Source: Kappaphycus alvarezii
Lineage: Eukaryota; Rhodophyta; Florideophyceae; Gigartinales; Solieriaceae
DNA: 64,000 nt
Assembly: GCA_002205965.3 (NCBI GenBank)
Contig: NADL03000629.1
Span: 372,001-436,000, forward strand
Reading direction: 5' to 3'
Below are positions 6,029 to 55,579 of this stretch, one piece after another; positions within the stretch are counted from its first letter, which is position 1, and every line of letters begins with the position of its first letter. The translations under genes were made by a program, and so were the position numbers. Under the pieces are notes generated by a model. The model made no database searches, was not told the DNA's origin, and saw nothing but the letters and a program-made list of their open reading frames with translations.

Positions 6029-6072
6029 GATCATCATTACTGGATTACGCGATCCAACATTTTCTTGACCGT

Positions 6073-10122: not shown

Positions 10123-10573
10123 CTGGAACCATTCTCATCGAATGAGGACCGAGTACTAGTTTCAAACGTTGAACCCTTTGTAAGAGCAATGGGGACATAC
10201 GGGACGGCTCGAGCGGTTTTAACCCAGAACAGCAGCAGCAGTTATGTCCAACGCATCATGCCTGCTGCCAGGCTTTGAACAAGCCATTTAGGCATACAAA
10301 TGACATTACCCATTGTCCTGAACACGTCTAGCATACACTGGGGATAGCCGAACCCGCACTTTTCAAAAATTAAAGAACCAAATCGATTCACCCCTTGTAA
10401 GAGATGACACTCGCATTGATTTTGACAAACATAGAATCGAAGTTGATACTCATATTCATCAAGAAGAAGATATTGATGAAGATATTATTCCCGAGAACGA
10501 CACTTACGTAGCCCGAAACTCTTCCGCTCTCTGTTGCGGTTGGAAAACTTTCAAGTCAGTGACTGCGGTTTGA

Positions 10574-11281: not shown

Positions 11282-11332
11282 GGGGGAAAGTTTGGGTGTT
11301 TTATTCTTGTACGATATATCCGATCTATCCCA
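11282..11332 (-). mobile_element. 51-bp micro-retroposon with 8-bp target duplication
   Basis: CAACAGTC is repeated exactly at 11274-11281 and 11333-11340 and encloses 51 bp. Read on the minus strand, the insert ends in an A-rich then C-rich terminus (AAAACACCCAAACTTTCCCC). That end resembles the constant end of the insertions at 30.9, 34.0, 46.9 and 48.6 kb. The internal part matches 6073-6120. Confidence 0.65.
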
Positions 11333-27062: not shown

Positions 27063-30000
27063 TAGTGCTTTGATACAAGTACATGTCATGATTTAACTGT
27101 TTTTAGAGTGTACCTATTACATGGCCGTTTTTTCTCCGCACTTGCCCCACTTTTTTTTTATTTGCCAATGGTACATGTTAATTTTGCGTTGTTTATGCCC
27201 ATTTCATTTTAGTTATTTGTGGTCAAATTTATGTGATTGACCTTTCAAATTTTTATTTGCATGTACCAATGCCCTGCAAGCATTTCTATTTTGTATACAT
27301 CCCATGTTTCTTGTACCTGGTGGAAGTTTTTTTTACATGCCTGTCACAGCTCTAGTTGATACTCTCCCCAATAACGCTTACTTATCAAATAAAGTACCAA
27401 ACAGCGGAAGGAGAGGGGAGCATTGTAAAAGAATAATCAGACAAGTTGGACATTCCGACACTAGCTGTCTCAAAACGTACATTGGAAAGAATGTTTCATA
27501 ACATTCCTATGCAACTAATACTCCAAAACTCAACCCCTGTAATGTACAATAATATACTTTGCTATTACAATACACGACTCTGTAGGAAACAGATATTTTT
27601 ATTATGTCCACTTCACCAAAGGATACTGCTGAATAGCTCTGTGCAAAGTATTACAGAATATCATGCAGATTTTCAGGCAAGTTTTTATTTACTGTACTAC
27701 TCGATACCTATAGGAAGGGTCAGATTTTGGTAATCACTTTCAATATGTAACCAAGGAGAAGTACCGGGGAATTTCGAAACTACATTGCAGCGGTTAGACT
27801 ATTTCCTCATTCATGCAGTCAGGCTGCCTTGTGGCTTGCGAGTAAAATATTCCTGAGCCTGCTTTGCTAAATAATCGGAAAAAAGAAGAAGGAATGCCAG
27901 TTTCATAAAGGGATGCACTTTCAAAGAAGTCTTGACACAGCGTCATGCCGCAGCAGCAGCGATGTCCAGTGCAGCGTTCCTGCTGGCCGGCCTCTAGTCA
28001 GTTTTCTAGCGTTTTGACGGCTTCCCGTAAATCCTTTACATTGTAAGCCTTTACCATCACGACATCCTCAGGGAACAGCTGACCATATTTTTCATGCATT
28101 AAAAACACCTCAAATTTCCCCTTTTATCTTCCCTACGTTATTCTTTGTCTTAAGTATGTAAAACTTTTACGTTACTAGATCCCACGCCAAAATGGACGAT
28201 TTCAGTAATTATGAATATTTTGCTTGACAGCTGGAAAGATGGCACCCATAAGTGACAATTATTCAAGTTTGAAAATCAAAAATGTACACATGAGCATCAA
28301 CATGAGATTTAATCAAGAAAATTCAGCCAATATCTCTATAGAGTTCCTATCGCTAGTCACCAAAATTAATTTGAAATTTTCATACAGTTTAAGGCATAAG
28401 CTAATATTGAAGACTCATAGCATTGAGTTACAGGAATTCAACATGCAGATATCTTTATCCTCCATTCTTTCCAAAAAAAAATTCGAAAATTCGTTAACAT
28501 TTCGAGTTAATCACTCAAACAACTTATTATTCATTTATGTCTTATGAAATTATAATTTCATCGCCTATAACATCCTAGCATGTCCCTGTACCAAAGTTGT
28601 AGTGAACGAAGGAAACATTCTGTTAAAGATGTAATTTTAATCTAGCACGTTTACTCCTCCCGAAACGAAGACTTTTATCGTGTTCATTGAAATTACTCAT
28701 AGCTTTGCTACTTCATTGAAAATAAAAGAGGTCATTTCTCTCATTTATTGCTGTTTCCTCTTCATCATACGTAGAATTAGTCAATTATCAACAAATTTAC
28801 ATACATTGTGTTTTCAAATGGTTTATGTTAACAACAGAAAGATTTATGGTCTTTTTACTCCACATTACAAATTTTAAAATTCAAATGAGTAAGTATTACA
28901 GAAATATTTGATCAATTTTTAGATTAAATATTCCATTGATCACAAAAACTTGAAGTTTGCGCTTATATGTATTTTCTATAATTTAATTTTTTAACTTAGT
29001 GTTTATGATTCAAAAAAGTTTCAGAAGTTCCATTGCAAAAAAGGCTATTAGGAAACAAAATATGGAAATTACTATTGAAATCAAACTCTTGTTTACTTTA
29101 CTTAATCATTTTGAAGTATTGTGTCTCCTTTTTAAAAAAATGATTCCATTTTTTCACGTAAATTTCTGTGTAGTTTTCTTCTAAATTAACATAATATAGA
29201 TGAGAGCAGAATTATTTTCTCAGCATTTTATGAAATGAATTAGCTTTAGAGTTTTATCAGCCTTTTATAGCGGATTATAGTCAAATTGCGAACAACTTAA
29301 TGGGGGTTATCATGAAAATTTACAATAATACAAAACTCAGAAGAACACTTTGCGGCTTGTTTTACTTGTATTTTCTAGAAAAAGGATTCAAAATGACCTC
29401 TTCAAAGCTGAATATTGACAATTCAAATAGATTCTTTTTCAATTTCAGTAGTAAGGCTCATTTCTTTCAATAAGCATTAATTTCTATGAATTTTTATTTT
29501 GATTGGCGCGAACCGAACGCACTTCGAATGAATTCTTTGTGTTTTATATTTTAATTTCGATCTTTTAACGAGCGAAAGACTTCTTGATGTTTAAACAGGT
29601 TTCATTAATGTCGATAAGGATAGAAGCACTTAAAGATGGATATGTTAAACTTATTTTCTGCCTAACTGGCAGGATTTGACTCGGGCGCCACGAATTTGAG
29701 CTACCAGAAGTGAAGCATTATCGCAGAGTATGAGCCCTATACGAGATACAGAAATTATTTTCTTGTAGCTCAAGTCCTGATATGATCGAGGATGACAACC
29801 AAGAGAGAATTTATATGTAGTAAAACGAACGCAGATCGGTGTGTTCGAAGCAATTTATAGAAAGTTTCTGGAGAAGTAATTCGCGAAAGCATGAGCAGTG
29901 AATGCGGACTTTCTTATGAAGGGTTTTAAGGTCATATAGAGCAGGACTACCCAAAAAAAAATTTACGTGAGAATATTGGAGCAAATTTACCTTCAAAAGG

Positions 30001-30879: not shown

Positions 30880-30891
30880 TTTCAAAAAAGG

Positions 30892-30972
30892 GGGGATTTT
30901 TGGGTTATTTTAATGCATGGAAGATGTGGTCGGTTATATCCACGAGGCTAATACGTTGCTCGTATTAGCAAC
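30892..30972 (-). mobile_element. 81-bp micro-retroposon, longest copy, 12-bp target duplication
   Basis: TTTCAAAAAAGG is repeated exactly at 30880-30891 and 30973-30984 around 81 bp. On the minus strand the insert reads from a stem-loop (GCTAATACG/CGTATTAGC, 30947-30969) through TATAACCGACCACATCTTCC to the constant end AAAATAACCCAAAAATCCCC. This is the longest of the copies with defined boundaries. Length varies only at the end opposite the C-run, as for 5'-truncated retroposed copies. Confidence 0.75.
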
Positions 30973-31535
30973 TTTCAAAAAAGGTGCTCGGACCACTGAC
31001 GCTACGCGGAATATGGCGAAAACTTCCTGCGCGTAGGTTCCAGAAGTGCTCATGAGGCCAGGCACTGAGTCGCAGAACACGGAACTTAATGGAATTTACT
31101 TGCCACCAGAGAAAGTTTCAAATTACCTCTAGTGCGGATCGAAGAAAATCTCTCTCTTCCTCCAATTCAGCGGACGTTCACGTAGTCATGAGCCGATGAT
31201 TCCTTCCAAACGGCAAGCCGCCTCACAATTTCACGATTCTCTTGAACCAAAAAGGATCGGTCACAACTCAGATGTACCACAAGGGCTATTGTAACTCCTA
31301 ACCTCGATTAACACTGTGTCTGAATGCCAATGCCCAGGCGCTGTGGTGTGGCAACCGTCCAGCTAAAGGCAGCACCGTTCTCAGTAACATGGCCGAGTCC
31401 TGGGAACTCCTCATGAAACGAGAGGACGAGGTCTCGTCGCCCGCAGCCCCGCTTAAAAGCCGAATCCTCGTCAGGTAAGCTTGATCCTCATCAGACTCGA
31501 CGAAGAAGGCCCTCCGGGTTCTCCAACTGGTCCGG

Positions 31536-31659
31536 CTTTTCAACACAGGAATTGGAATTACAGTTTCGGACGTGCAACGTTAGCAGCTGTCAGATTGTGT
31601 GTTCAGGTTGAGAAAAGGATTTGAGTCTCACCCGTTTCTGTTTGTTGGAGAGGACGTAC
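31536..31659 (-). other. Spliceosomal intron 2 of the MBL gene
   Basis: Begins GTACGT (31659-31654), carries TGCTAAC (31585-31579), and ends TTGAAAAG (31536). This is 124 nt in phase 0. It joins GDSWVTK to PDQLENPE, as expected for the family after the metal-binding Asp. Reading through instead gives a stop within about 20 codons. Confidence 0.75.
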
Positions 31660-31853
31660 CTTTGTGACCCAAGAATCACCTGTGATGAGCAGACGCTCAC
31701 CCCTAGAAGAGACGCGGATGGCTACGTGCCCTGGACTGTGCCCCGGGGCAGGTATGAACTTAATACCGGGAAACGGGGAACCACCTTCAGGAACCAGGAC
31801 TAAGCGATCAAGATATGGCTCGATATTTCTCAGATAGATGTCCTGAAGCACGG

Positions 31854-31956
31854 CTGCGCAGTGCGAAGAGGGCAAGATGTGATGGTGTTAGTAGAACAGA
31901 ATAATGACAGGGCACTGCGGCTAATGCAAAGTAAAGCGATAACGCATACAACGTAC
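31854..31956 (-). other. Spliceosomal intron 1 of the MBL gene
   Basis: On the minus strand it begins GTACGT (31956-31951), has a perfect TACTAAC branch site (31893-31887) 33 nt before the acceptor, and ends GCGCAG (31854). Removing these 103 nt joins GTT-G to CC-GTG and continues the hydrolase as NEIVAVLQDIYLRNIEPYLD. Confidence 0.85.
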
Positions 31957-32499
31957 CAACAATCTCGTTTGAGAGGGTAGCCGGCTTGAAGTTCTCTAGG
32001 GGCATAGTGGACCAGAATTCGTGCTCTGCTTGCGGAACGTAGATCTTTGCATTTGGAAAGGCTCTATTCCCTTCCGGAGTGTTGATACCTGAGATATGGT
32101 CGCCATGTCCATGGGTTATTAAGACGGCATCAATAGTTTCCGGGGCAATGCCTGCAGCTTTCATATTGCGAAGAAGATTTCCAGCTTGTTCAAAAAAGGG
32201 AAGCTCTGGTATATTCACGGCGCCGGAATCAACGAGGATACGGGCGGACGGGGTGTCGATAAGGAGTATGTTGAGGCCGAGGCGGGCAGGAAATACGGGG
32301 CGGAAGGACGCGCGATAAGAGCGACGAAGGGCAGCATCGGGGACTGAGAATAAGTTTGAATCGAAGATGACGTTGCCGTCAGAGATGACTGTGAGGTTGA
32401 GAGAACCCAAGGAACGAGTTTGAAAGGAGGGATTGAGGTGCAGGTTGTGGCGAAGGATAAGGATAGGATACAAGATAAGAAAAACAAATGCGAAAGCAT

Positions 32500-34023
32500 G
32501 GTTGCAAGAAGAAATGAGGCGAGACGGGCGGGGACTAGAGCAAAGTAGAGAATTCTGGATGTGGATTAGTGCTGTGGGTGTAGCAGTGGACTAACGTAGA
32601 GGTCTGCACCAGAAAGAAGTGAGGTGACCGGGCGAGTGCGATGTGGGGTTGCATCTTAGGCCAGATACGTCGGTGCGGCACGGCATCTATGTATTGAGGA
32701 GATGGTGGTGATGTATTGGTTTTAATGTACGATGTCTTGGGCAAGGATGGTATTGCCAACGTTTCTATGTACGGAATATTGATAGAGAGGATGACCTAAC
32801 TGCAGTTTTGTCGGACATTAATGTTTTTGGCAACACAGGTAATCGATGTGCGTATGAATATCCAATGCATCGGTATGTAGCTTGCGTGGCAATCAGTTTA
32901 TGTAAAGGTGGGAGAGACGGAAACATCCCGTAAAACTTGGTCAAACCTGTAATCAACTGGATTCTGCAAAAGCGTTGGAATGTCATGTGCACTCTACATG
33001 TGTATCACTATAGTGTCATTTGGTAGCATACATTGCAGATGCGATTCGATCCTTATTATTCCAGGATGGGTGCAGGTGGGTGGAAATCTCGAACATGTCT
33101 CTTCGGCCGAGATGCATAACGTTCAAGTGCCCTACAGCGTGTGGTGGGCAAATCTACTTGAAATTATCATAACCATGTGAACATTGTTTCCCTCAGGGTT
33201 GTTTTTTTGGCAGGTGCAGAAATCTGACGACGCTATGACAGCTACAGTATGTTCGATGGCGATGGAGACTGCTGTGGTCACAATTTCATGCAACACCATT
33301 CGCATTGGCAAATAAGATTCGCCAAAGTTCGGCTTCAAATGCGCATACATTTTCTTGAAAAAATACAAAGGGCAAAAAACGAAATAAGATTTTTCATAAA
33401 TTTTCGAGCCAAGTGTAACATTATTGCCGTCTTGGGGATCCAGGAATCACAGTATATTGTACAACATAGTCAGCAAGAGGTACTGTGCGTGTAATTAAAG
33501 CACTCATGCCATGCCCAAAAGAGGACCATTCGAACCAATAGGGTGCGCTTTGATGTCCTCAAACTAGCGAGAGCACATGGAAATCAAATACCTGAGTCAA
33601 AACTTCCAAAACCAATATTGCAGCAGATCCAAAATGGCAACATTCCCCACACCAAAATCCACAACGGATGCCAGCTGTGCACTCTGCAGCGAAAGCTATC
33701 AAGGCAAGTGGAATCAAATGCACAGCCTCTCGTCTTAAACAGCATCCAAGTTCAGAACCTTGCACGCTTTTCGCACTGCCGCTAAGCCTTTGAGCTTTTG
33801 GCCAACCCAACCCGTAATGACCGTGGCGCGTGGCGCTTGGAGCACGAGCATAGCTATTCTATCCCGTCAAAGGCGCGGAAACTGTGTTTATCTGTAAAGA
33901 TGTAGATCAGACTGCGTTGAATACCAGCAATGCTTTGCCGTCTGTAACATTTAATTTATCCCAATACGGAACCGCTGTGTCGAAAGCAAAATTCTACCAC
34001 AGTTTCGGGCACACCTTTGGTAC
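32500..34023. other. No recognised gene upstream of the MBL gene
   Basis: Contains the probable promoter of the hydrolase gene but no clear TATA box. ORFs at 33543-33785 (plus) and 33559-33810 (minus) overlap each other and show no motif. Confidence 0.25.
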
Positions 34024-34063
34024 GGGGAATTTTTGGGTTATTTTAATGAAAGGAAGATGTGGT
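34024..34063 (-). mobile_element. 40-bp micro-retroposon, shortest copy, 10-bp target duplication
   Basis: CCTTTGGTAC is repeated exactly at 34014-34023 and 34064-34073 around 40 bp. The insert holds only the constant end of the family (minus strand: ACCACATCTTCC, then AAAATAACCCAAAAATTCCCC). Confidence 0.75.
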
Positions 34064-34073
34064 CCTTTGGTAC

Positions 34074-34661
34074 ATAATTTGCCGTTGAGAATGTGAGGCC
34101 AGTTTCGCCGAAGGCATCCCCGATACTAATGCAGTATTATTATTATTATCGAACAAGCGCGCGGCATCGAGCATCACAGCCGCTGCGCGCGCCTTTCCTA
34201 TCAGGCCTTGTTTGAACATTCCATACCCATGTGGCGTTTGATGTCGCCCACCCGCATGGACGTCCGAACGCCGACCTCCGCCCGGAGCATGTTTACTCGT
34301 TGGGCCTGTCCACAGTAAAATACCCTTGCACCCGTCCTGTGGCCATGTCGGACTGCATGTCGTTCTGTCAGAACACTACGTCTTCGTTGCGTTTCCTCGG
34401 CGACAGATGTGAGTCAAGGTCCTTTTATGATACTCAACTGTACCCTGCAAGAGTATGGGATAGATCGGCAAAACACCCAAACAATTCCTCTGCAAAACAT
34501 GCGCAAAAATTCTACGTCCGACTACAAACCGAATGTTTCCATTCGTGGTTATCCTTTTTTCGGTCACGCTTGACGTATCTGTCTGCTCTACTGCTTTCAT
34601 CTTATCATATCATCACGCTCGATTTGTATTCCATGACCTTTGTTTCTTCCCCGCTCTCGAC
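34074..34661. other. Unassigned; plus ORF 34231-34737 runs into LTR
   Basis: The plus ORF of 168 residues has no recognised family, and its 3' end lies in the copia LTR, so it is probably fortuitous. (TAT)n microsatellite at about 34134-34151. Confidence 0.25.
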
Positions 34662-34666
34662 GCAGT

Positions 34667-35098
34667 TGCAGCATCACAGCCCAAAAGGTATGACACGTGT
34701 AGCACGCAGCAAGGTTGCTGGTGGAAGTCTACTGTAAGCCCTACAAGCCGAGCTTACAAAGTCTGACACAACTACTGACCGTTGTGCTCGACGGGTTGGC
34801 TTCCCCTTATTGCGGCAAGAACAAGTGTTTACTTCTTCTGTCTGATGGCTGATGATTCTTGTCTTGGACTTGCTCCGCTACTCGGTACGCAAGCCCTTAT
34901 ATAGACTTTTTTGTAGCCCGTCTGCACTGTATTTGGAAGTACAGTACAGTACAGTATAGAACTAGTCCACCATAAAAATTAAATCTAATGGCTACAGTAG
35001 CATTTGGTACTAGATTAATATCATAAAATATCTAAGCATTCCTGCTGAGCTGTCACAGGTGCTGCGCTGGCACTTTCGCACACCCTTTCTGTATAACA
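34667..35098 (-). repeat. 3' LTR of the copia element
   Basis: 432 bp, starting TG (34667) and ending CA (35098) on the plus strand. Contains a (GTACA)n-like stretch AGTACAGTACAGTACAGTA at about 34938-34956. On the element strand there is no obvious TATA in the usual place. Pairs with 39931-40362. Confidence 0.95.
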
Positions 35099-35111
35099 TT
35101 CCCGCCCTTTC
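35099..35111 (-). other. Polypurine tract
   Basis: On the minus strand GAAAGGGCGGGAA abuts the TG of the 3' LTR, the position where plus-strand DNA synthesis is primed. One C interrupts the purines. Confidence 0.7.
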
Positions 35112-35566
35112 AAAAAGCGAGGCAGGTGTGCCTTACTTCTTACGGATAATCCATTGCTCGATGAAGGTTTTGTCAATCCAGTCCGTAGAATATTTAGCAG
35201 AGGCTTGCAAACATTCGGCTTGGTTAGACCATCAGCAGGATTTGCAACACCAGCGATAAGTCCAACATTTGATATTTCGAACTTGTTGTAGGCTTCGCGA
35301 GCAGCAGCGATGTCTATCATTAAACGTTTCTCAGTTGTATGCGAAGCGCGGGTAATGACATCGAAAATTTGCTTCGAGTCTGTGAACATTTTCAGAGGTA
35401 TCTTACGGCGTAAGATGCGTTCCAAATCGTGTTTCAATATGTAAGCGACATCAAATGCGGCGGAGAATGCGTACACTTCTCCAGCCATGATAGACCGTAC
35501 GACGCGTCGAGACTTGCGGCTGCTATAGTTCAAAACATGGCAGCGGTCTGCGTCATCACAAAGCAA
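35100..35566 (-). pseudogene. copia RNase H
   Basis: Single open frame of 181 codons. It includes SRKSRRVVRSIMAGEVYAFS (first Asp/Glu region), KMFTDSKQIFDVITR with the catalytic DS, and GLIAGVANPADGLTKP, the copia end motif. It reads through the polypurine tract into the LTR. The last part (after about residue 120) is unusually long for the family. This is the least damaged domain of the element. Confidence 0.8.
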
Positions 35567-35750
35567 AATAATGAATCCTAACTGCGAAGTGAGATCTGTG
35601 TTTGTCGCAAACGATGCATCTGCGTAAGCACGAATATGAAGAGTGTTGAAATTGAGCGGGGATATTTGAGACGGATGTCTTTGGTATCTTTCACATAGCT
35701 TATGGAAGTATTAAGCTCGTCTATGGCCTTCTTTCCGAAACTTTCAACGG

Positions 35751-36724
35751 TTACTTTGCTGCACGATTGACTGCACAGCATATGTCTGGACGAGTGTGCG
35801 ATAGCCAACTGAATGCGGCTCGGGGACGAAAGAGTTCAAAGGTAGAATCCTTTGGTATTGTTCTGAGCTTGGCAAGATAGTCTGGTTGATGGGCGTAGAA
35901 AGTTCGCTGACCATCAATCGATCGTTTCAGTTTCAATATGGATGCCGACGAACTCAAGATTGTCATACTCGACCGGTTTTGACTCAAACGAACGAGCTGT
36001 GAGTTCAATGAGCTTATCAAAATTTTCATTTCCAGCAAACAAATTATCATCGACATAGGCTCCAAGAAGTCGGTACCCTCGTACCTTTTTCATGTAAAGG
36101 GATGGATCTCCGTCGAGTGGTAGCATTCCTAGTTCGTTTTGATGAAAAATTCGAGAGTAGCGCCCCAGTAGTCGCCAGAATCACATATACCATAAAGAGG
36201 CTTTTCAGCTTCAGTACTTGATCTCCCCGGATGTTGAAAAACTTTCGATCTGCCTCACGGATCTTAAGATATATATATCACGACTTAGCTTTTCTTTCGC
36301 TTGGAGGTAAGCTTGAACGAAATCAATCATTGCGAGGCGGTAATTAAGAATGGCAGATACTGAAAGGATTATTTTGTGGAGCTTTGGCGTAGCGTTGGGC
36401 AGCTATGCACTATAAACTCTTTCATGTCATCTTTGTAGCCTTGTCCAACGAAACGTGCTTTGGCCTTCTGACGGTCGGTACCTGGATTCTTTAGCGTAAG
36501 TTCAAATCTTCCACCGATAATGTTTGCCTTCGGGGAAGAGACGAAATATTGACGACTTCCCAGACTTTGCGATCAGAAAGACCCTGAATCTCGTTGCGTT
36601 TGGCTATTTCAAATGCTGCGGAGTTAGATCTTTTGTCAGCAGTAGGAATTTTCTCCATGATATACGTTAGGCTTGGAGTCTCGGACATCAGTTTTCCCTC
36701 TGTTTTGACCCGAACTTCAGCCAT
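35751..36724 (-). pseudogene. copia reverse transcriptase, broken
   Basis: Starts with AKRNEIQGLSDRKVWEVV, the conserved RVT_2 entry (copia W-x-x-A-x-x-x-E-x-x-x-L). The central part RLAMIDFVQAYLQAKEKL corresponds to the first catalytic Asp motif. LLGAYVDDNLFAG (about 36040-36080) carries the YVDD active site. FSWLSHTRPDICCAVNRAAK (35812-35751) marks the connection region. At least four frame changes split it. Confidence 0.85.
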
Positions 36725-37850
36725 TCTTTCTTGAACGGTTGCAAGAAATGTTTCGCCCGAGAATACTCGGTCAAAGACGTATCTATTTCGTCACGCTCAT
36801 TATCAGACAATTTTTCCTGTCCTTTCTGGTGATCCGGATCCGTTATATACTCACGGACTCTGTCAATCGAAACCCTTTTAAGTTCGTTATTGATACTGAT
36901 CCAAAGATTTTTTTCATCTCCTGCAACAACCTTGTATGGGCCTTCCCATGCTTTCAACTTTTCGCGATAGAATAGTACTTGAGATCCAATTTTAATCTCG
37001 CGGTCTGATGCAATCGGGACGTTACGATTAAGAGCAGTGCGGATGCGGGCAGAAGCAACAGCCTTAGACATTTCAGAGCGAGCATTTTGTAATGCTTTCA
37101 TTCGCTCACGCTGCTCGGGAAGATCTGAGAATCCTAGCGGAAATTGTGGAACGATTCCAAACACGAGAAGAGTGGGAGACAATCCATCTGGCCCGGCGGT
37201 GTTGTTCATGGCATGAACAGAAAGAGAAAGACAGTCATCTTTCGAAATCTTTGGTGCTCCATTCGTACCTTACGATAAATTCGTCGGAGGAAGTCATGGT
37301 ACTTTTCACCGACGCCAATAGCATTATGGCTTTCGATACCTGAGTCCAAGCGTTTATCCCACTCGCTTGCAGCAAGTGACGCCACCGGTCACTATCGAAT
37401 TGCGGTCCACGATCAGTGTGAATTTCTTTCGAGTAACCGACGTACTTTGTAACCCATTGACGGACGTAAGCTGTCCATACGTTGTTTGCCGACTCTCCAT
37501 CGAGGAATACTGCAGCACTGAACAACGTATCCTTGCAAACCATGTGTAGTACGGGCATGCTTTCCAAGTACATAAGATCCATAAGCACAGTTCGGTTAAA
37601 GACTACGTCTTCGCTTGGCAGTGCGACGCGGAAACGACCAGGTTGTTTCGAAATCCTTTGACAAACATCACAAGATTCAGTAACTTTTTCGAGTGCCTTA
37701 AGTGTCTCTGGTGTCGCTTGAGGATCCTTGGCCTGCTTCATCATTTTGTATATTCTCAGCGGATGCGGGTGATAAAAGTGTCGGTGGATCCTTTTCAATT
37801 CGGGCTCTGTATACATAACTTCGTAGTTCCATTCATAGTAGGCATGGCCC
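36690..37850 (-). pseudogene. copia integrase, broken
   Basis: Zinc-binding H-H in RIHRHFYHPHPLRIYKMM and C-x2-C in CDVCQR. Core catalytic Asp in VLMDLMYLE and in IHTDRGPQFDSD. The Glu lies in GVGEKYHDFLRRIYRKV (about 37260-37320), reached only after a frameshift near 37340. A C-terminal part from 37209 includes SQVLFYREKLKAWEGPYKVV, resembling a GPY/F-type end, which is less usual in copia. Length is normal for the family. Confidence 0.85.
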
Positions 37851-37859
37851 AGCTTTCGA

Positions 37860-38215
37860 CTGAGAGGTGCGCTCCAGACAGGATCTTTGCATCTGATACG
37901 ATTGTCCACGGTGTCTACTAGAAGCTTGTACTTATCAAGTACGTCGAGTCCTAAAAGAAGCGGTATTTCAATATCTACAACATCCAGAACGATCTTCATG
38001 TGACGGTTGTCGCCATATGGGATTCGAAACTTTGCTTTTCCGATGCTTTCCTTCCTGTTTCTCCAAATTTGTAGACCTTTGCTGCTGAGGTATGAGAGCT
38101 AGAGGGATTCCCATAAGGCGGTAGTATGCCTCAGCTTGACTCTTCCCTACTACGGATCTCTGAGCTCCAGTATCCAAACAGGCTCCATTGAACCTTTCAA
38201 TGCCTTTTGGGGCCG
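37860..38215 (-). pseudogene. copia aspartic protease, broken
   Basis: The active-site segment FNGACLDTGAQRSVVG lies near 38160-38200, with the catalytic Asp in DTGA. The flap/hydrophobic end IEIPLLLGLDVLDKYKL (about 37920-37975) lies in a different frame after a shift near 38060. It would cleave the gag-pol polyprotein. All expected landmarks are present but not in one frame. Confidence 0.8.
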
Positions 38216-38531
38216 AAGGAGAAGTAAGGTTGATTGTAGCGTCAGCTACAGATTTTTCATCATTGTGTCTCTGACATAATTAACAAGTGCATCGAAGAGA
38301 TCAAAGTCTGTTTTTCTTCTTCAACTTCATCGTTAACATGTCATCTGTTTCATCTGGTACTTCTTGACTCATTTCCTCTTTTGCTTCATTTACAGAGTCG
38401 AGCTGTTGACATAATTCAAACAATACAACCTGAGCATTTTGGGTGTTTCCATTTCTCTTCGACATGTACTCCATTTTTCGACGAGCGGCTTTAGCAAGTC
38501 AATCTTATGCGGACATGAACTTAGCATATGA

Positions 38532-39754
38532 TCAGGGAATCACAATTGAAGCATCCCATGACCGAAAGTGGTCCAGATGGATCCTTCCTACGGCCGTAAC
38601 TACGTGTATCACCGACACCACGATGTCGGTTTGCGTAGCGAGCAGGTCCTTGATAGAGTATCCAGGGACCTTTTCGTCCTCATCTGAAGTAGTACGTGAC
38701 CTAATTGCAACTTTATCTCTCATGTTTGCCAATTTGGCTTCCCTAGAGAGATGCAAGGCTGCTTCAAGTTCTCCATAGAGTTGCTGAAATGAGAGTCCAT
38801 GGGTAGCGACGCGACTTAACGGCTCCTGCCCATGCATAACCGACGGTAGCATTACGAAGAAATTCAATCTTGTGTGCCTCACTCCTGTGCGAAACAGGAA
38901 CTTGCGGTGAAAGCTTTGTTATCAGCTTGTACAGTTTTTCAAGTGCTGCAAGCTCATCAAGGCCTTCAGAAGTATACTTAGATAACCTAAGTCCACCGAG
39001 ATAGTTCTTCACTCGATTTTGACGAACCACGGAGTTGTATTCATTACCAATGAGGTTTATGGCCTCAGTAAACGAATTAACTTCGTTATCAATTCGTCCA
39101 GGTAAAATCTCTTAGCATCACCACGTAGAAGGTTATGAAGGTATTGCTTCTTCTGCAGCGCTGAGACCATAGTCACGAGCGACTTGTTGGTACTCGGCAA
39201 CATATTCCATCCATGACTCACCAAGGTCCCGAGAACTTTTGGTCCTTGTCACGGAATCTAGAGCCGATGTAGTACGCCAATTTGTCCTGATGCGTGGGGA
39301 CGGATGTAGCAAGAGATTGTCCATCTTCGGTGGCTGATTGCTCCTGGCCTCTTCGGGTTGTACGACGACCTGATTTCATTATGTCCTTTGTTATTTCTTC
39401 TGCAGCTAACTTGTCTTCGTCTTCGGTATAGAGATTAGCGGCTAGCTGGCGGATAACACGACGGGAGCTATGCGGCGGCATATTTGCACCACGGTCATTC
39501 AACCAGTCACGAAGTGCTTTATAAGCAATAGGCAGAGCTTGTATAGCAGGAGAGAACAATACAGCAGGTGGAAAAAGTTCGGCAACCTCATCGACTACTT
39601 GAGGTCCAGTCATAGACCGAGCGGAGACACGATTCTCGAGTATTCGAATTGAGTTGATGAATCCTAAAACCTCTTGAGAGACATTTTCCAGTGCTATCTC
39701 AGACAGAAACAAGTCCGATGTATCGGCAGTGCTTCCTTGATCCATGTTGATCAC
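38532..39754 (-). pseudogene. copia gag, broken
   Basis: Capsid-like ORF at the element's 5' end. It begins MINMDQGSTADTSDLFLSE (39754), runs 178 residues, and changes frame near 39260 (ESWMEYVAEYQQVARDYGLS). It is interrupted again near 39130 and 39080 (LLRGDAKRFYLDE, NEVNSFTEAINLIGNEYNS) and continues to about 38532. Position before the protease, length and helical composition fit gag. I saw no CCHC zinc knuckle. Confidence 0.65.
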
Positions 39755-39930
39755 TGACCTAGAAATTAGGATAAGTTCTGACTTGTTTCCAACAGAAATT
39801 TAGTGTGTGAGCAATAATACTCTGGTTCACGTTGACGAAGAGATTTTCAGGCTTTTGTTCAGTAGTAGTATGCAGTTGTAAGAACAAAGTGTGGAATAAA
39901 ACTGAGGACACTGTGAGGATAATTCGCGAA

Positions 39931-40362
39931 TGTAGTATCACAGCCCAAAAGGTATGACACGTGTAGCACGCAGCAAGGTTGCTGGTGGAAGTCTACTGTA
40001 AGCCCTACAAGCCGAGCTTACAAAGTCTGACACAACTACTGACCGTTGTGCTCGACGGGTTGGCTTCCCCTTATTGCGGCAAGAACAAGTGTTTACTTCT
40101 TCTGTCTGATGGCTGATGATTCTTGTCTTGGACTTGCTCCGCTACTCGGTACGCAAGCCCTTATATAGACTTTTTTGTAGCCCGTCTGCACTGTATTTGG
40201 AAGTACAGTACAGTACAGTATAGAACTAGTCCACCATAAAAATTAAATCTAATGGCTACAGTAGCATTTGGTACTAGATTAATATCATAAAATATCTAAG
40301 CATTCCTACTGAGCTGTCACAGGTGCTGCGCTGGCACATTCGCACACCCTTTCTGTATAACA
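39931..40362 (-). repeat. 5' LTR of the copia element
   Basis: 432 bp. It differs from the 3' LTR at two C/T positions close to its 39931 edge, one G/A (cctgctgagc versus cctactgagc) and one T/A (cactttcgc versus cacattcgc). The bases inward of it (minus strand TTCGCGAATTATCC) should contain the primer-binding site, but I could not match a tRNA. Confidence 0.95.
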
Positions 40363-40367
40363 GCAGT

Positions 40368-41080
40368 GACCTGTTTACCCTCGCCTAGTCTGCCTGCTTG
40401 CTACTGAACCGCAGCTCCAAATGGTTTCTACTTTTCATTGCCCTGTAATGATTTGCTTCTCTCAAAGTTTGCCTTTTCCAGTACCGTGTTTCATTTATTT
40501 TCCTACCAGTCACGACTAAATTGAATCCGCGCTATTCTTCTTGCTAGTTTTTGAATACTTCTCAAACTATACCGTGCTGCTTTGCACCATAAATCATTCC
40601 CCTGCTACCCACCGTACACAACCATGAGTTGAAGAATTAAATCTAATACTGTCACTGTATTCAGCGCTAAAAGAACTCTTGCAATCGCGTTCGAACTCGT
40701 ACGCTGAAACCGTAAAAAAGCGTTAGAACCCGCTCGTAGACTGTAATCAGCGCTGAAACAACCCCCAGAAAGGCGTTTCTAGGAGTTCTGAAGGGGTTTG
40801 ACATTGTGGAAAGGGGCCAAGGGGCAAGGGCGCTCGTCGATTCCGCCAGGTTTGGGGGAACGGTGCCAATTTTCATACGTCTGAAGCGTTCTATGTGTCG
40901 GGCTATGTACTCACGAGCGCTCTGTGGCCAAGAATTGCTGGTACTGTACCACGAGCCTAAAAAATTAAATAAGAAATAGCAGATTACAAGATAAAATGTA
41001 CTGTACGGTGGTCTATAGTAAAAACTTATCGCAGTGAGCACTAATACCACTTTAAATGCCGCGTTTCGTTCCAAAACGCC
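40368..41080. other. Unassigned; minus ORF 40667-41236
   Basis: A minus ORF of 189 residues starts inside the AT-rich insertion at 41090-41653, so its N-terminal third is not a natural protein. The part below 40960 (LGSWYSTSNSWPQSAREYIA, ERFRRMKIGTVPPNLAE) follows TTTTTTAG|GC and could be an exon. No family recognised. Confidence 0.25.
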
Positions 41081-41089
41081 GCATTCATT

Positions 41090-41653
41090 GCAAAATAATT
41101 GAGATAGGTAGATCCAAAAAATAAACAGTTCCAACTTGAATAAATAAATATATTCGACAATTGGGCTTAGAATGAATAATGAATAGAAAACTAAATTTAA
41201 TGATAGCTGATCGAGAGGAATATTTCGATGGTCCAAGGATATAAAAAAGTATTTCTAAAAACCTAAGACTACTTATACTCTACACCAGGGTGAATCTGCT
41301 ACAAATATCAGGTAAGTCGTACAATAACTTTAGTAGGCATTTTTCAGGCTCAGCAATAATTATTTTAGTATTTTCCAGGTAAGCACGCATCTAGACAATA
41401 ATTTGTTGGCAGCATAAATGCAATACTTATAGCTTGTATAATATAAAACACCAACTGTAGGATATACAAATTATTTCACACTGAATTCAGCATGAAATAG
41501 GGCCATTGTGAAATAGATAAAATTATTCCTGATGATTCACAATAAATATAAATTTTGGGCTTCAATAAAAATATTGCTCCACAATTAAGCATCACTGTAG
41601 GACACCGGGATAGAGATTAAAATATTTAGTCAATTTTCACATTTATATGCATT
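41090..41653 (+). mobile_element. AT-rich dispersed element, copy 1
   Basis: GCATTCATT flanks it at 41081-41089 and 41654-41662. The 564-bp insert matches 55580-56129 along most of its length (shared words: GATAGGTAGATCC, TTAGAATGAATAATGAATAG, ATAATTTGTTGG, CACTGTAGGACACC) and more loosely 42065-42769. No terminal inverted repeats and no ORF of note. Confidence 0.8.
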
Positions 41654-41923
41654 GCATTCATTCTTTTTGCGGCTCCGCAGTTAAGCCCGACCGACTGCAC
41701 CCTGCTCTTTCCTCTATTTGAGCTCATTCTACTCAAAGATCCGTCCAGAACTTGGGGACCTTTGCCGCAGGAGGAGTGAGAACTCGACTCCCGCGAGAAG
41801 CGTCCCCCTAAAGAGAGCAGGGCACTGTTCGCGGGTCCATCGTCAAGTCCCACAACCTTTTGTCGCTGCCCTTCTCAATCATCAGCAAGGCATTGGGAAC
41901 GTCCGCTTTCCGCCATAAGGCCC

Positions 41924-43127
41924 ATGTCCGCGCCCGATCCGCCTTCACACGGAGCACCTCCTGTTAATCCGACCACTGGTGCTCCGGTACCCCGTTGTGT
42001 CCCCGCGAACACAGAAGACCAGACCATCCACGGTGTGACACCCAAAGGAGGCAAGCGAGCTGTGTAGAAATTTAAATGAAATGCGTGGATCCAAAATAAT
42101 CAATTTTAAATAAATGATTACTGGATAACCTGAAAAGGACTGAGAATAATGCTCAAAAGAAATCCAACATTTATTGATCGACTGGGATAGTTCGATGGCC
42201 CGAGGTCTGCTAAAAGTTTCTAAAAGCCTACAGTAGGTCTCTTTACACTGTAGATCAAAGTAGAAAGGCTACAAGAGGAAAACGGGGGTTTCGCCATTGA
42301 GATGTAGGGATTTGCTGAAAAATATCTGGAGTTTTAAATCTGAATATCATATTAAATACATATACCGGTGGTCGAAGCAATGTACAAATCATTGCTGAAA
42401 AGCTACCAAGATGATTGCAGCAGTATGATAATTTTTGTAGAACAACGAAGAACGTGCCCCATAATAATTTTAGAACAATTCTTTAGGTGAACATTAATAC
42501 AAATAATAATTTGCTGGATACATAATTCCATTATTTATAGCTGTATGATTTAAAGCCCAACTGACAGGCATAAAAATTACTTCGCATGTACTACAGTATA
42601 AAATATGGGCCATGCAAAAATAGTAAAATTATCTTACGATGATTCACAATAAATAAAACATTTTGGCCTTTGATAAAATATTGTTCCACTATTTTTAGTC
42701 ATTTTATTTATTATGGAAAACAAAATAAATAGTTTTCCATACTTGTAAAAATATTTTCCTATTTTCACAAGCTGTGCCTCACCGCCCCACGTCACCTTCT
42801 CCAGATGTAATGACAGCTGGACCGACCTCTACCACGCCCTCTAGCCAGTCTCCGGGTTCCCCGTCGAAAGTGTCCAAGCGCCAATGCCCGGACCGCATCG
42901 TGCACCCGAACGCAAATCGAGACTATAATGACACCCAAACGACACGATCTCTTTCCAAGGCCTCAGAAATGACTACTGACCTCGAGCTGCTAACGGAAGC
43001 GCTCATGATACCTCCGGTCCTGCCTGCCACTCCGCGTCCACTGAAACAGGCAGTGAACATTGCTCAGCCTGCTGAGCAGCGTCTGCTAAGAGAGAAACTT
43101 GAGATGTTACATTTACGCGCCCTTTAA
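41924..43127 (+). pseudogene. Unknown Pro/Ser-rich ORF split by AT-rich element
   Basis: The 5' part runs from ATG 41924 to 42064; the frame is open further upstream from about 41780. The 3' part is 42777-43127. Taking out the insertion plus one copy of AGCTGTG joins GCT-GTG to CCT-CAC in the same frame and gives about 163 residues from this ATG. The protein is rich in Pro, Ser and Thr (HRPTSPSPDVMTAGPTSTTP) with a more ordered end (TTDLELLTEALMIPPVLPAT, EQRLLREKLEMLHLRAL). I recognise no family. The continuity supports a real gene disrupted by insertion. Splicing at GT-AG borders of the insert would not restore the frame. Confidence 0.5.
42065..42769 (+). mobile_element. AT-rich dispersed element, copy 3 (diverged), 7-bp target duplication
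   Basis: AGCTGTG is at 42058-42064 and 42770-42776. The 705-bp insert is a more diverged family member with the conserved 3' portion (GATGATTCACAATAAAT, TGGCC, AATATTGTTCCAC, ATTTTCAC end). Confidence 0.8.
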
Positions 43128-43970
43128 TTTTTCTACTCGCTCCCTTTTCCTTTGTTTCTGCCTTCAAATCATTTTTTAAGTCACGAATTTATTATTGCTT
43201 TGTACTCTTTCCTTTTCCTCGTTTCTCTCTTTATGAGCGAATAGCTTCCCCTTTCATGGTAATCCGTTTAGCCGTCTCCGTCTATTTGATCTTCTAGGTC
43301 CCTAAATGTATTTTTTCCTAGTCAATATCTCTTCACACGACTTCGCCTTACATCAACCTTTCAGGACGGTTCTCACTAATTCCCACCAAAGCACCAATTT
43401 CCGCCTACTTTCTTTATTCAGCGGCCTGTGAAACTGTATCGTTTGGCGCCGTTTAAACACGCCGGCGCGCCCCCTAAAACTTATCTACGTCCCTACAACA
43501 ACGAATACTAAACAATTCACATTGCCTTCGACAGCCATCATGAATTGATTAGCTCCTCTCCCCCCCATTGCCAAAGCCTGTCACCCTCGCCCATCATCGT
43601 CTTTCCCTTATTCCCCTCGGGCCTAACCGATTTCGAGGACCACCTCCGTCGCCGAACCAGAAAAAGTTTGATGGAGTCCATTGCTCGTCAACTGATGGAG
43701 ATCGACTCACAAGAATGGGAAGGGAGGGGTGTGCTTCGAGGAAGGGGTGACCCCCAAGCTGGGTCTACGAGATGAAAGAAGGGGAGGCCGAGGCGAATCA
43801 AGGGAGTGATAAGAGGAAAAGGAGACCGGGGAGGAAGTAAAGGAAGATGAGAAGTTCGCAGATGAATAAGGGGGTCACGAATTGGGTCATATTGAGGGAA
43901 AGAAATGAACCGGCTGACCCGGATGGTCCTGACCATGGACCTGCTTGGAGGATATTAAGGTGAGCTTTAT
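43128..43970. other. Pyrimidine-rich stretch without recognised gene
   Basis: 43130-43600 is C/T-rich and 43690-43880 purine-rich. ORFs at 43545-43775 (plus) and 43798-44139 (minus) are overlapping and compositionally biased. GTTTAAACACGCCGGCGCGCC near 43450 is a chance run of rare-cutter sites. Confidence 0.25.
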
Positions 43971-44480
43971 TCTTTGCAGGAAGTTGGAGACAAATGTGGG
44001 CCATCCACAGATATATTTGGGGAATATATGGGCACTTATGGTATCTTAAAGGAGGTGTCTGATCTAGAGGATAGAGACGTTGAGGAGTACATTCATTTCC
44101 TTTCTTGCGAGTATCTCTTGTCCAACTCTTTGCATCCACTTGAAGTCTTTTTCGTACCTTTTTTGATGCTTTTTGTATTTTTATCGAGATCCTCGTTTGG
44201 AAAAAAGTCTATAAAAGCTAAGTAAAATGCTGCATGCATGAGACGAAAAGCAAGTTGGCGCACAACTACAAGTCCAGTTCCAAATATTTAGAAAGTTGAG
44301 AGTCAACGCCAGACGCAAAACCCGTTTTTCTTACGCTAGCTACAGAGCATAGGTGGTAGAGCCTGCCCCATTAGATTTGATAATTTGAGCAGTCATTCAT
44401 CATTCACGCCCACTCTCCATCGCCATTCAATGTGTACTGTAGCAATTTGGTCGCTCGCAACGAACCTTTGTTGAAGATCC
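43971..44480 (+). repeat. Acidic-ORF/TATA repeat, copy 2
   Basis: ORF end with GEYMGTYGILKEVSDLEDRD from about 44023, spacer, TATA-like TCTATAAAAG (about 44209), leader AAGCAAGTTGGC (about 44251) and AGGTGGTAGAGCCTGCCCC (about 44351-44370). It ends at GGTCGCTCGCAACGAA (about 44450-44465). Copy 3 follows at about 800 bp spacing, so these two form a tandem pair. Confidence 0.6.
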
Positions 44481-44775
44481 CGATCCCTGTTTCGTATGCA
44501 CCGGATCTGTGCCTCAGCCTGCCTGTTCAACCACTTTTTCAAGCTCGTCGCATCAGTCAAAGCCTTTAGAGAAGAGAAAGGAAAGGGAAAGTTCGAGAAG
44601 AAAGACGGGGTGGCCAAACAAGAGTCCGCGGAGGAAGGACATGAATCTGAAGAGTCCGTTTATGAAGAAGAGGATGTAGAATAGAGTCATATAAGAGGGG
44701 AATAATGAATTAGTTAGACTATGTGGTCCCGGCAATGGAGCCGGTGGGAGGGGCTTAAGGTGTGCTGTGCTCGTT
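44481..44775 (+). other. Linker between repeat copies; acidic ORF 44496-44684
   Basis: The ORF ends in a highly acidic run (EEGHESEESVYEEEDVE). A similarly purine-rich stretch precedes copy 2, so this is probably part of the repeat unit. Confidence 0.35.
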
Positions 44776-45260
44776 GCAGGAAGGATTGATCGATCTCGAG
44801 CCATCAATGGGTATTTGTGGAGACTACATGGGTACTTTTGATGTCTCAAAGAAAGTGCTAGGTTCTAATTTAGAGGATGAAGATTTTGAGGAGTAGAATC
44901 ATTCAGTTTCTTTCAAGTATATTTTCCGTAACTCTCTCCGTCCACATGAAGTATTTTCCTACTTTTTATGGTGCTTCCTGTAGTTTTATTGAGATTTTAG
45001 TATAGAAAAAAAGCCCTTATAAGCTACTTTAATTGCTTCTTTCACGAGACGGAAGGAAATTTTACAGTCAATTGCAAACCAATTTCTTCAATCGGTTCCC
45101 TATCCTTCAAGGAAGGTGGTAAAATCTGCCACTTTTGAGTTGGTTACTACAAAGGTCACTCAACTTTTACATAAACTCCTCGCTATTGTCAATTAACGTC
45201 TGCTGTAGCGCTTTAGTCGCTCGAAACGAATCTGAATTCAAGTATTGAGCAGTTTCTTTT
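44776..45260 (+). repeat. Acidic-ORF/TATA repeat, copy 3
   Basis: Homologous to copy 2 from GTTGCAGGAAG onward: GDYMGTFDVSKKVLGSNLED then EDFEE-stop, TATA-like CCTTATAAGC (about 45016), and the end GTAGCGCTTTAGTCGCTCG. More decayed in the leader. Confidence 0.55.
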
Positions 45261-46913
45261 CCACTAACGCCATTTTATCCTATGAAATGGCTCGATAGAG
45301 TCGATATTCCTGTGCAAGTGATTCTTTGCGAAAATCTTGGATCCAACTGGGACGTTGACAAAAACTGCCTCGTAGGTGTACGCCTGCATAGTTCCCGAAG
45401 AATAAAGGTTATGAACTGGGCCCGTGGGACTACTAGATCACTATGTATACCATCCATGTGGTGAGCGAGAGGGTGAGACCGCGTTCCCTGGCACCTGTTT
45501 AGGAGAAAACATTAGCTGCCTGACGAAGCTCTTCGTGTGATCCATTGGTGTAGCCGTCATCTTGATTCCAAAAATAAAGTAAAATACTACGAAGATTACG
45601 ATCATCATCTGCATTCGATATTAGAAGCTTCTTTATTTTTAAGGCAATAGGATGCAGTACAAGATAGAAGAGAAGCACTCCTAGATTATCGCCCCGTTGG
45701 CTTCCTTGTATGCTTCTGATGATTTTGGATCCAAATTAAAAATTTTCAGTTTCTTTTTCACCTAGCAGTATCAGATTTATGGCAGCAGTTATAGTAATAG
45801 ATTATTAACTGCTTTGAGAATGCCAGGCCTGCTGCAGAAACTTAAATCATGCTTGAAACCCCTGATAGATACAATCAAATGCTTTTCCTCCAATGTGCTT
45901 TGCCTCCAATGTGCGACAGATAATATAGTCTGGATCTCATGCCAGATGAAAATATTTTATTGATTAAGAAACTTTTGGGTTTCTTAGCCTTGAAGATCGG
46001 AATTTTTGAAATTTATGGCGTTTTACTGCTCCCCTGTAGTGTATTTTGCTCGAACAAACCCCCCGCAAAAGACCTTAGTAAAAGCATTCCATGCTGCAAT
46101 ACAGGAGAGATCCCCCCGGGGACCAACGGGGGCAAGCTTGCTGATCTTCTATGGGACTTCCTCAAATTTCCCGGCACAACGGAATAGGTTTATTGTGCTC
46201 CGTGCACCTGCTTCAAGATCAATATTGACGCCCATTAATTCTCATTATGCCTGCATTTCTATCTCCAAGTCCCGCTTTTCGCCCCGCACACGCCATGCCT
46301 ACGATCAAAATGCCCTGAGATCCTCGACTGCTACGGGATCACCTCATGCACTGCTTTCATGGTGGTCATCAAGCCCGAGGATACGACCGCCAAGTCGTCC
46401 TCCTCGCTCAAGATCTGCAGAAGGCAGTCTGTCCCCCGGCCATCGAGCAACGACAGAGACTTCACCGTACAAGACCGGATATTCAGACAAAGAGTAGCAA
46501 CAGAGGAACGGAATTTTTGACGTCATGTTCGTCAGTCCTCTTGCGCCCTCTAATGGAAGAGTACGCACTTTCAAGCCACTCACCTCCCCCAACCCAGCCA
46601 TTTCCGCCAAGCGTAGAAGTTATGAACCTTTGCTCGCAATGGCTGCTTGAGGAAGTCTTATTCCTATCCAAATATCCACCTTGGAGGCTTGCAGCCTGAC
46701 GCGTACGAGTTGCTAACCGAGCTTGCATGGAACGTGGCCGTTCGAAGAATGGAGACCTATAGTAAGGTTAGATCGGTGCTTGTCCAAAAGCACACTGATG
46801 TGGCCTTCATGTATAACGCTGCATGCCAGCGAGCTTGCATGCAGCCTTCCTTTAAGAAATTTTATTTACTATTACCCATCAGTGACGACTTCTCCCACTT
46901 AACGCACTAGTGG
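45261..46913. other. Unassigned region with small ORFs
   Basis: ORFs at 46006-46497, 46346-46699 and 46647-46910 (plus) overlap in different frames. The last has a helical stretch (TELAWNVAVRRMETYSKVRS) but no recognised family. Confidence 0.2.
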
Positions 46914-46966
46914 CATGGACAAAACCGACCACATCTTCCATTCATTAAAATAACCAAATTTCCCCC
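46914..46966 (+). mobile_element. Micro-retroposon copy without clear target duplication
   Basis: About 53 bp matching the family: CATGGACAAAACCGACC, ACATCTTCCATTCATT, AAAATAACCAAATTTCCCCC. No convincing flanking duplication, so the insertion is probably older. Plus orientation. Confidence 0.65.
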
Positions 46967-48090
46967 ATGTAAGTACTGTCCGTCTAGAATGATCCGGATT
47001 AAGGTAGGACCTTCTATATCTCGAGGTTAGTCAACCCCAATTTAATATATAACCCGGTCGAGGTCAGCATCACTCATTTGGGGTAGGTAACCAGCGAATC
47101 CAAGATTTGCCTTTGTGCGCCTCGTCCCTAAACTGGTAGCATCGCAGGTTAGTTCTTTGCCACTGCCAGTTTTGCAATCCTCTCGCGGTTCAAAATCTCT
47201 ATTTGATTTGCCGGCCGTGTAGGTTTTTGAATAGAAACTAACCAATTTTTGACCCTCTGAACGTTATTCTTAACTTGCAGTGCCATAGATCCACCGATAT
47301 CAACGTCCCCCATCCTCCCCGTCCCAGTTTAACTCAGCGGAAGAGCGGTGCATGAAAGAGAATTGGCCGGATCTGCTCCCGATCGAATACGTCTACCATG
47401 ACGAGACATCGACATCGGCTTTTACCGCCTCAAAAACGCCGAAGACCCCAAGAAGCGCGCAGATCCCTCTCGACTTCGGTGATCTGCTTATATCGACCCC
47501 TTCGCCATGGTCAACCCAAAGGACTCCGACTGACTCCACTTTTCTCCTCATAGACGCTGTCGAGAAACCGAATACGCCACTGATTGCCAAATTAGCCAGC
47601 TGCGTTTCAGCAAGTCCCACGTCTATCGTTTCCGTCTTCTTTCTAGCTGTCTAGACCCCCTCGTGTTGGTTCTTCTCGCCCAACTAGCCTTCCCCGCGCT
47701 CGCGATTTGGCACCTTCTCCTTATGTACCCACGCTGTTGCCCGTCCCGTATCGCACATCAGCAACGATTTGGCGCACAGCCAATCACCGCATCCGAAAGC
47801 TTGGCCGCCTTCTGCGTCGTTAAATCATTCCAATGCCGAACAGTATTCCTACGAACTGTAATTCTTGTATAGTGACTTGCATCAGTCCGGTGCAGTGGGC
47901 AGAGAACCTTCGATCACGCCACCCTACTTGCCGTTACAGCGTAGTAACCTTCCCGTTTGACAGGTTAATTTAACTTTTCGTGCAAGGAGGACTTTGATCG
48001 ACACAAAGTCGGTTGTGCACAACCCCAAACTTCGACCTTCGCGCCGCCTCGAACAACTCGACCTCTTCTTTGCGCCTCTACAGTCCTTTC
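46967..48090. other. Unassigned; plus ORF 47352-47654
   Basis: The 100-residue ORF from ATG 47352 begins MKENWPDLLPIEYVYHDETS, is Thr/Ser/Pro-rich, and ends in a hydrophobic stretch (TSIVSVFFLAV). It could be a small tail-anchored or secreted protein or chance. No family recognised. Confidence 0.25.
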
Positions 48091-48099
48091 TTTTCTTCT

Positions 48100-49335
48100 T
48101 TATCACTTCCTGACATCGAATTTATAAATATACTTCCAGTCTTGACGCCATACTGCCTTCTTTGGCCTCGAAAAGTTTCGAAAAGAAGTCTGATATAGTG
48201 TGTGTATGGATACCATAATTATGAAAAAAGTTGTGAAAAATGTCGTTTCATTAACTACAGAGTTGAAATCAACTTCAAAGTAAACCAAGTGTTCATACCA
48301 GTTTGATTTGTCGAAGTTTAAAAATAAGCGAATTATTTTTTCAATTTACGATTCATTTTTTCCTTTGACCATCCAGTTTAGGTTGGTACGCAGACGATAT
48401 GGAAAGCTTGATACTTAGGATGGCAAAGAAACTTCTCCAGAATTTGCTCAAGAAGATTGGATCCTGTCTGATATGATATTCAAAGGAAATCCATGGATTC
48501 GATAGAATTGATTCTTAAACAAGTGGGAAGTTTTAAATACATCCATTTTTCGTCCATATGGAAAACCCCGTATTATTTTTGAGATTCTATCCACTATTGT
48601 AAACTTATTAGCCTCATGGATATAACCGACCACATCTTCCATGCATTAAAATAACCAAAAAATCCCCCCCTGTAAACATCCCGACGTTCCTATTCTCCGA
48701 TTTTTGTAACGGATTGATAAAGTCCGTAGTAATGTGTGTCCATTTCGATGAAAGCGGCTCTATTTGTTGTAACAGACTAGCCGGTTTCTGATTTCAATCT
48801 TTGCCCCTTTGTTACCAGCATAACATCATGTATTTGATAAAATTTGATCTCAAATATTTTCAGTAATATCTTGGAGCCATTCTTCTATTCTTCTTCGAAA
48901 TTACCAAGTATTCTGTAATTTCAGTGCAGTGTTGATGACATAACAGTTTTAAACGTAAATTTCAATTTCAATATCGTTCCAAATATTCTTTGTTAGAACT
49001 CTATAAGGTTTGATCTGCTTAGGAGATAGCTGAAATTTGTTCACTTCATAACTCTTCTTTTTGATTGCTTCATGTAGCAGAACTTTATTTTTTCGCTCTG
49101 GAGGGGTTCTCTCGAAAGGGCGTCTGCTACTATATTTGACTTTCGAGGTATCGGTATAATTTGCAAATTGAACTGAACGATAGTTTCGAGCCGTCTGGCT
49201 TGATTTGGAGACAGGTTTCTGCTTCAGTCTCTTGATATCGAAGTGGGTAATGATCGTTGTACACTACAAACTTCTGCCCATATAAGGATGGTGTCCACCA
49301 TTTTGAGTGAATCAGCGATAGTAAATAGTTCCTTT
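48100..49335 (-). mobile_element. Second decayed Ty3/gypsy fragment
   Basis: On the minus strand RNase H pieces appear first: KFVVYNDHYPLRYQ near 49.25 kb and RKSNIVADALSREP near 49.11 kb. Integrase then follows: TIVDRISKIIRGFPYGR and NQFYRIHGFPLNIISDR, 48.6-48.46 kb, the second carrying a catalytic Asp. Its end is NWYEHLVYFEVDFNS near 48.27 kb. Stops and frame changes are frequent. A micro-retroposon (48605-48670) interrupts the integrase just before its FTIVDR motif. Confidence 0.8.
48605..48670 (+). mobile_element. 66-bp micro-retroposon inside gypsy integrase, 7-bp target duplication
   Basis: TGTAAAC is at 48598-48604 and 48671-48677. The insert reads TTATTAGCCTCATGGATATA, then CCGACCACATCTTCC, then AAAATAACCAAAAAATCCCC. 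Removing it and one duplication brings the integrase sequence back to GTTTACAATAGTGGATAG (minus), the start of the FTIVDR motif. Confidence 0.75.
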
Positions 49336-55574: not shown

Positions 55575-55579
55575 AAGCC

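Follow-up and report, generated by a model that had tools for sequence, protein, structure and literature searches.

The short C-tailed insertions in this stretch of Kappaphycus alvarezii DNA are very probably 5'-truncated products of target-primed reverse transcription, derived from a dispersed R2-like LINE that probably encodes a restriction-like endonuclease. The sequence-based support comprises a shared 3' end, variable 5' ends with flanking duplications, one unoccupied site, a target bias among copies with long duplications, and a parent element whose reverse transcriptase is R2-like.

Stubs and longer LINE copies in the window

In the window (the whole 64-kb stretch of DNA that was analysed), the first-pass annotation had placed three short insertions between direct repeats, and their coordinates and repeats were all correct. 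Copy A (30892..30972, 81 bp, LINE sense on the - strand) lies between 12-bp duplications, TTTCAAAAAAGG, at 30880-30891 and 30973-30984, copy B (34024..34063, 40 bp, - strand) between 10-bp duplications, CCTTTGGTAC, at 34014-34023 and 34064-34073, and copy C (48605..48670, 66 bp, + strand) between 7-bp duplications, TGTAAAC, at 48598-48604 and 48671-48677. These stubs matched the LINE element of locus L068 at 96% (copy A, for 30890-30957), 95% (copy B, over 41 bp) and 94% (copy C, over 65 bp). The last 15 bp of copy A (30958-30972) depart from the parent and form a hairpin with adjoining bases (9-bp stem); since these bases fold back on the element, snapped-back cDNA could be their source. Such stubs are easily overlooked, as the shortest here has 40 bp and contains no gene.

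A profile built from the four copies noted in the first pass re-detected them in the window with E-values from 1e-10 to 5e-22, scored nothing under E=1 when the window was reversed, and added a fifth copy at 28068-28120 (E=3e-5). This copy E (28064..28121, + strand) is an older stub of the same family without a clear duplication. A repeat search of the window identified a diverged pair, namely copy G (11282..11332, - strand), a 51-bp stub of a diverged subfamily flanked by the 8-bp repeat CAACAGTC at 11274-11281 and 11333-11340, and its relative copy F (6072..6121, - strand), which has no clear duplication.

The fourth noted copy, at 46914-46966, does carry the common C-rich end, but it is not a separate tiny insert. 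It is the 3' end of copy D (46025..46966, + strand), the 3' part of a degenerate LINE copy with the C-terminal coding part and the 3' UTR, which blastn aligned to the L068 element at 79% over 962 columns. Its place within a longer copy would explain the absence of a close repeat. According to tblastn, 46026-46853 corresponds to residues 778-1052 of P0011, and inverted reverse-transcriptase pieces that adjoin copy D (45285..45857, - strand) correspond to residues 448-636, in both cases with internal stops. The order of these parts, with the reverse transcriptase inverted ahead of the C-terminal part, would be compatible with a 5' inversion, as from twin priming. A scrap of LINE C-terminal coding sequence (72%) is also present at 10184..10278 on the + strand.

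The longest exact repeats abutting the G-run in the seven window copies measured 12, 10, 7, 5, 5, 4 and 8 bp. At random window positions with the same geometry, the chance frequencies of repeats at least that long were 0.00065 (12 bp), 0.003 (10 bp), 0.017 (8 bp) and 0.046 (7 bp), so that the repeat of copy C is weak when taken alone. Repeats longer than 5 bp were not found at the 28121, 46966 and 6073 ends of copies E, D and F. Elsewhere in the window (2758-2846), CTTGGTAC repeats enclose a 73-bp insert beginning AGGGGGG, which differs from the stub family and may be a chance arrangement.

When the flanks of copy A were joined at the duplication, they matched contig C169 (L170) at 126 of 132 bases without gaps. 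Over 3.1 kb, C169 was 88% identical to window positions 29321-30891 and 95% identical to 30973-32540, and the two alignments overlapped on C169 by 12 bases, which are the duplication, indicating a paralogue that lacks exactly the 81-bp insert and one repeat. This agrees with an insertion event in which copy A duplicated 12 bp of its target. The unoccupied site is a single paralogue, and recombination between the two repeats could also have removed an insert from C169. The joined flanks of 29 duplicated genomic copies (described below) and of copies A, B, C and G were likewise compared with the sampled sequences, and no other unoccupied site was seen among the matches listed (the join of copy C lay 7 bases inside the insert).

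Genomic copies and their flanking duplications

The first-pass annotation had described a fixed 3' end, a variable 5' end and duplications of varied length, read them as marks of target-primed reverse transcription, and proposed a genome search with examination of the flanks. The window's own assembly (336,021,096 bases, 884 contigs; the window is G000:C625:372001-436000) was therefore searched with a 29-base pattern from the stubs, TTATTTTAATGNATGGAAGATGTGGTCGG, allowing up to 3 mismatches. The pattern had 3,494 matches (1,730 + 1,764), whereas its reversed version had none in the same assembly. A first set of 90 copies with an exact match (30 plus 60 of 70 other listed places) was then analysed. 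Most of these share the end GGGG(n)-A(n)-T(n)-GGG, and their other ends diverge at many points.

The G-run was unrecognised in 8 of the 90 copies, leaving 82 usable ones. An exact repeat of at least 8 bp abutted the G-run in 29 of the 82, compared with 3.7% when right flanks were swapped between copies; for repeats of at least 9 bp, the values were 22 of 82 and 1.2%. A second set consisted of 40 loci, 10 from the same list and 30 from a list favouring longer copies. Three had no G-run, and 9 of the 37 usable loci had a repeat of at least 8 bp, compared with 5.2% for swapped flanks. The 29 duplication-bearing sites of the first set are unrelated sequences on many contigs, which does not agree with specificity for the 28S rRNA gene.

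In the sampled copies, one end is thus common, the other varies, and flanking repeats are frequent, as had been described for the window. The excess of repeats and the unoccupied site of copy A both support target-primed reverse transcription. A long repeat does not, however, accompany every copy, as none of at least 8 bp was found in 53 of 82 copies of the first set and in 28 of 37 of the second. At least five of the 82 (L026, L069, L074, L088 and L092) were misanchored on an upstream G-run, which lowered the observed repeat count. Some copies are old, and others may be insertions with deletions. By eye, positions 1-250 of the L068 reverse complement appear to contain the 3' end of a further, diverged LINE, which also begins with a G-run, suggesting that several subfamilies may have such an end.

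The parent LINE and competing origins

The first pass had left it between stubs of a LINE and of a SINE with a C-rich 3' end, and had suggested looking for a parent with a reverse transcriptase. Such a parent was found. In L037 and L068, its frame ends in ...AGIEPAL, and directly after the stop codon follows the same 3' UTR as in the stubs. Intermediate copies cross the stop codon and reach, to different extents, into the coding sequence of the LINE, which identifies the source as a LINE.

A SINE with its own 5' part and a 3' end shared with the LINE would account for the very short size and the many copies, and LINE-like 3' ends are common among SINEs according to the excerpt of PMC5322556. 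This origin is nevertheless highly improbable, because the 29 duplication-bounded copies are between 43 and 199 bp long and share no stopping point, and because the longer ones continue into LINE coding sequence.

Slightly less probable still is an origin as tailless retropseudogenes, that is, cellular RNA 5' ends beginning GGGG and variably cut at the 3' side, inserted by a LINE as excerpted for mammals (PMC5322556). Like the stubs, such retropseudogenes are short, have no A-tail, are flanked by duplications, and have one fixed and one variable end, which is what the G-first strand of the stubs presents; the element-derived G-run also varies, being 2-7 long in all but one of the 29 duplication-bearing copies. 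However, their parent is a cellular RNA truncated on the 3' side, while the stubs have a fixed 3' end and come from the LINE itself, as the sequence is a LINE 3' UTR right after the stop codon in L037 and L068 and intermediate copies cross that codon.

5' truncation of LINE copies is the preferred reading, and the protein of the parent resembles R2 proteins. In the genome search with PF00078, at least 150 of 10,224 candidates were scored. The RVT_1 domain in the L068 frame had an E-value of 7.7e-10, which passes the cut-off, and two R2 proteins were the only matches at E up to 0.1 when PDB sequences were searched with the parent frame. A homologue with 46% identity was folded with a pLDDT of 80. 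In Foldseek, R2 chains ranked 1-7 against this predicted fold. The overall fold predicted for the homologue is like that of an R2 protein, with 720 residues aligned to R2 8ibw_C at 4.5 A; in VIA-align, human LINE-1 scored higher (Z 25.2) than R2 (Z 21.4).

A restriction-like endonuclease motif is defined by RHD/N followed by PD...D...K. In the parent family, a C-terminal zinc knuckle is followed by a motif of this type, and C866, C871, H881, C885, H895, E916, R925, P926, D941 and K971 are invariant in 13 aligned sequences. From these motifs, the endonuclease is probably restriction-like. The sequence CPLC...HLRTAH, a candidate N-terminal zinc finger, is present in L068, but in a neighbouring frame of that copy.

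Comparison with known elements was made with excerpts of the published descriptions. Dispersed elements of the R2 type are already known, namely R2 families that are not target-specific (R2NS, PMC5035012), R2-like elements of Blattella (PMC7650587) and the families described in PMC4640811, so the kind is not new. R2, R2NS and the Blattella elements share with the alvarezii LINE an R2-like reverse transcriptase, a C-terminal cysteine-histidine knuckle, an endonuclease-like motif, a constant 3' end and 5' truncation, and some of the families are free of rDNA. The alvarezii LINE differs from R2 elements in its C-run end, its dispersal with an AG|TG bias, the dominance of stubs of about 85 bp in the sample, and its host, a red alga and not an animal. 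In the excerpt of PMC4640811, a PD-(D/E)xK motif is also given for LINEs with restriction-like endonucleases, Utopia has N-terminal zinc fingers, a central reverse transcriptase and a C-terminal zinc finger with the endonuclease, and HERO includes many non-specific families; HERO, NeSL and Utopia were compared with the alvarezii LINE by description. The LINE thus represents a new family within a kind of element already known, R2-like by sequence matches, motifs and predicted fold. A limited literature search, covering parts of articles, retrieved no match to the family, the AG|TG preference or such a dominance of stubs.

Target choice, stub length and integration

Among the 29 duplication-bearing copies of the first set, the base before the insert was G in 23, positions -2 and -3 each held A in 17, and TG followed the second repeat in 21. 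TG occurs at 6.6% of window positions. This motif was first noticed in the first set, and the longest-repeat rule counts G's of the run when the second repeat also has them; the second set therefore served as a test. There, TG followed the repeat in 5 of 9 copies (P about 1e-4), and just 3 of the 9 had G at -1. The window itself contains four stubs with duplications, and copy A is the sole one whose second repeat is followed by TG. Insertion thus appears to prefer (A)AG|TG in copies with long duplications.

At the far junction, likeness to the parent entered the second repeat by 1-4 nt in 14 of the 29 copies and ended exactly there in 6; the duplication thus starts 0-4 nt inside the end of parent likeness in 20. 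In the other 9, a gap separated the end of the likeness from the repeat. It measured 1-4 nt in six copies and 14, 44 and 79 nt in the remaining three, so that chance may account for a few of these repeats. If pieces of DNA or products of telomerase had been captured where both strands were broken, as with vertebrate TERC-ITS, this would account for the small overlaps in the 14 copies and for the G-rich start, but the exact duplications, the AG|TG bias and the LINE parent make it the most remote of the origins considered, and random additions and deletions are reported at TERC-ITS sites in the excerpt of PMC8537989. A telomerase-RNA origin had been considered because GGGTTATTTTA resembles the red-algal telomere motif in the excerpt of PMC7046594, and was dropped once the LINE 3' UTR was found. 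Rfam had nothing at gathering score over the window, with only sub-threshold matches for 30880-30985 and 28000-49000. A viral-contig match, L001, had about 23 bases in common by eye and looks like chance.

Of the 90 copies, 69 resemble the parent over more than 60 bp, 41 over more than 100 bp, 20 over more than 150 bp and 14 over more than 200 bp, the median length of likeness being 85 bp; one copy, unaligned at the start, was counted as 15, and stubs shorter than about 44 bp are invisible to the search pattern. For copies that end inside the fetched stretch, lengths fall off with a mean near 53 nt, which predicts that 1.1 of 89 reach 278 bp, while 11 did. As this rate was derived from the shorter copies alone, two modes are hinted at, not proven. 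Pattern counts fell from 3,494 to 1,704 and 1,227 with growing distance from the 3' end, the third count being swelled by tandem arrays of a 4-kb unit carrying a LINE remnant; a pattern from the coding region had 1,522 matches, in which sister subfamilies may be included. In L129 (G000:C214:41350-45700), units of about 4 kb follow one another head to tail; they carry a 155-bp LINE remnant and a frame that looks SKP1-like by eye, and contigs C238, C316 and C359 show a similar spacing.

In the proposed mechanism, the LINE protein would nick a single strand at a site loosely resembling (A)AG|TG, and the freed 3' end, often G, would pair with the C-run that terminates the LINE RNA. Reverse transcription would mostly halt within about 100 nt. 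The second strand would then be cut some 7-15 bp away, in an order that we infer, and the ends joined, often with an overlap of 1-4 nt. We further propose, tentatively and at somewhat less than even chance, that there are two integration modes, a common abortive one that stops at about 2% per nt and yields 40-200-bp stubs, and a rare processive one that yields long copies, together leaving thousands of C-tailed tags at AG|TG through an R2-type endonuclease of relaxed specificity. The R2 resemblance of the parent, the preferred target, the dominance of stubs in the sample and the placement of one listed site within a longer LINE copy go beyond the first-pass annotation.

The stubs form a dense natural record of the points at which an R2-like enzyme, acting outside rDNA, begins and ends target-primed reverse transcription. 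Development of R2 proteins for RNA-templated gene insertion is under way, according to the excerpt of PMC11331408, and early stopping and target choice would be plausible practical problems there.

Other features were seen in the window. Direct repeats of 300 bp, 99% identical, at 34667-34966 and 39931-40230 surround a frame (37238-38098) that weakly matches an integrase, and the whole unit of about 5.6 kb (34667-40230) probably represents a young LTR retrotransposon. About 550 bp are repeated in pieces at 41090-41641 and 55577-56128 (85-91%), perhaps as solo LTRs. In line with a eukaryotic genome, a metallo-beta-lactamase-like frame in the window matched, over 66% of its length, a EukProt transcript at 76%.
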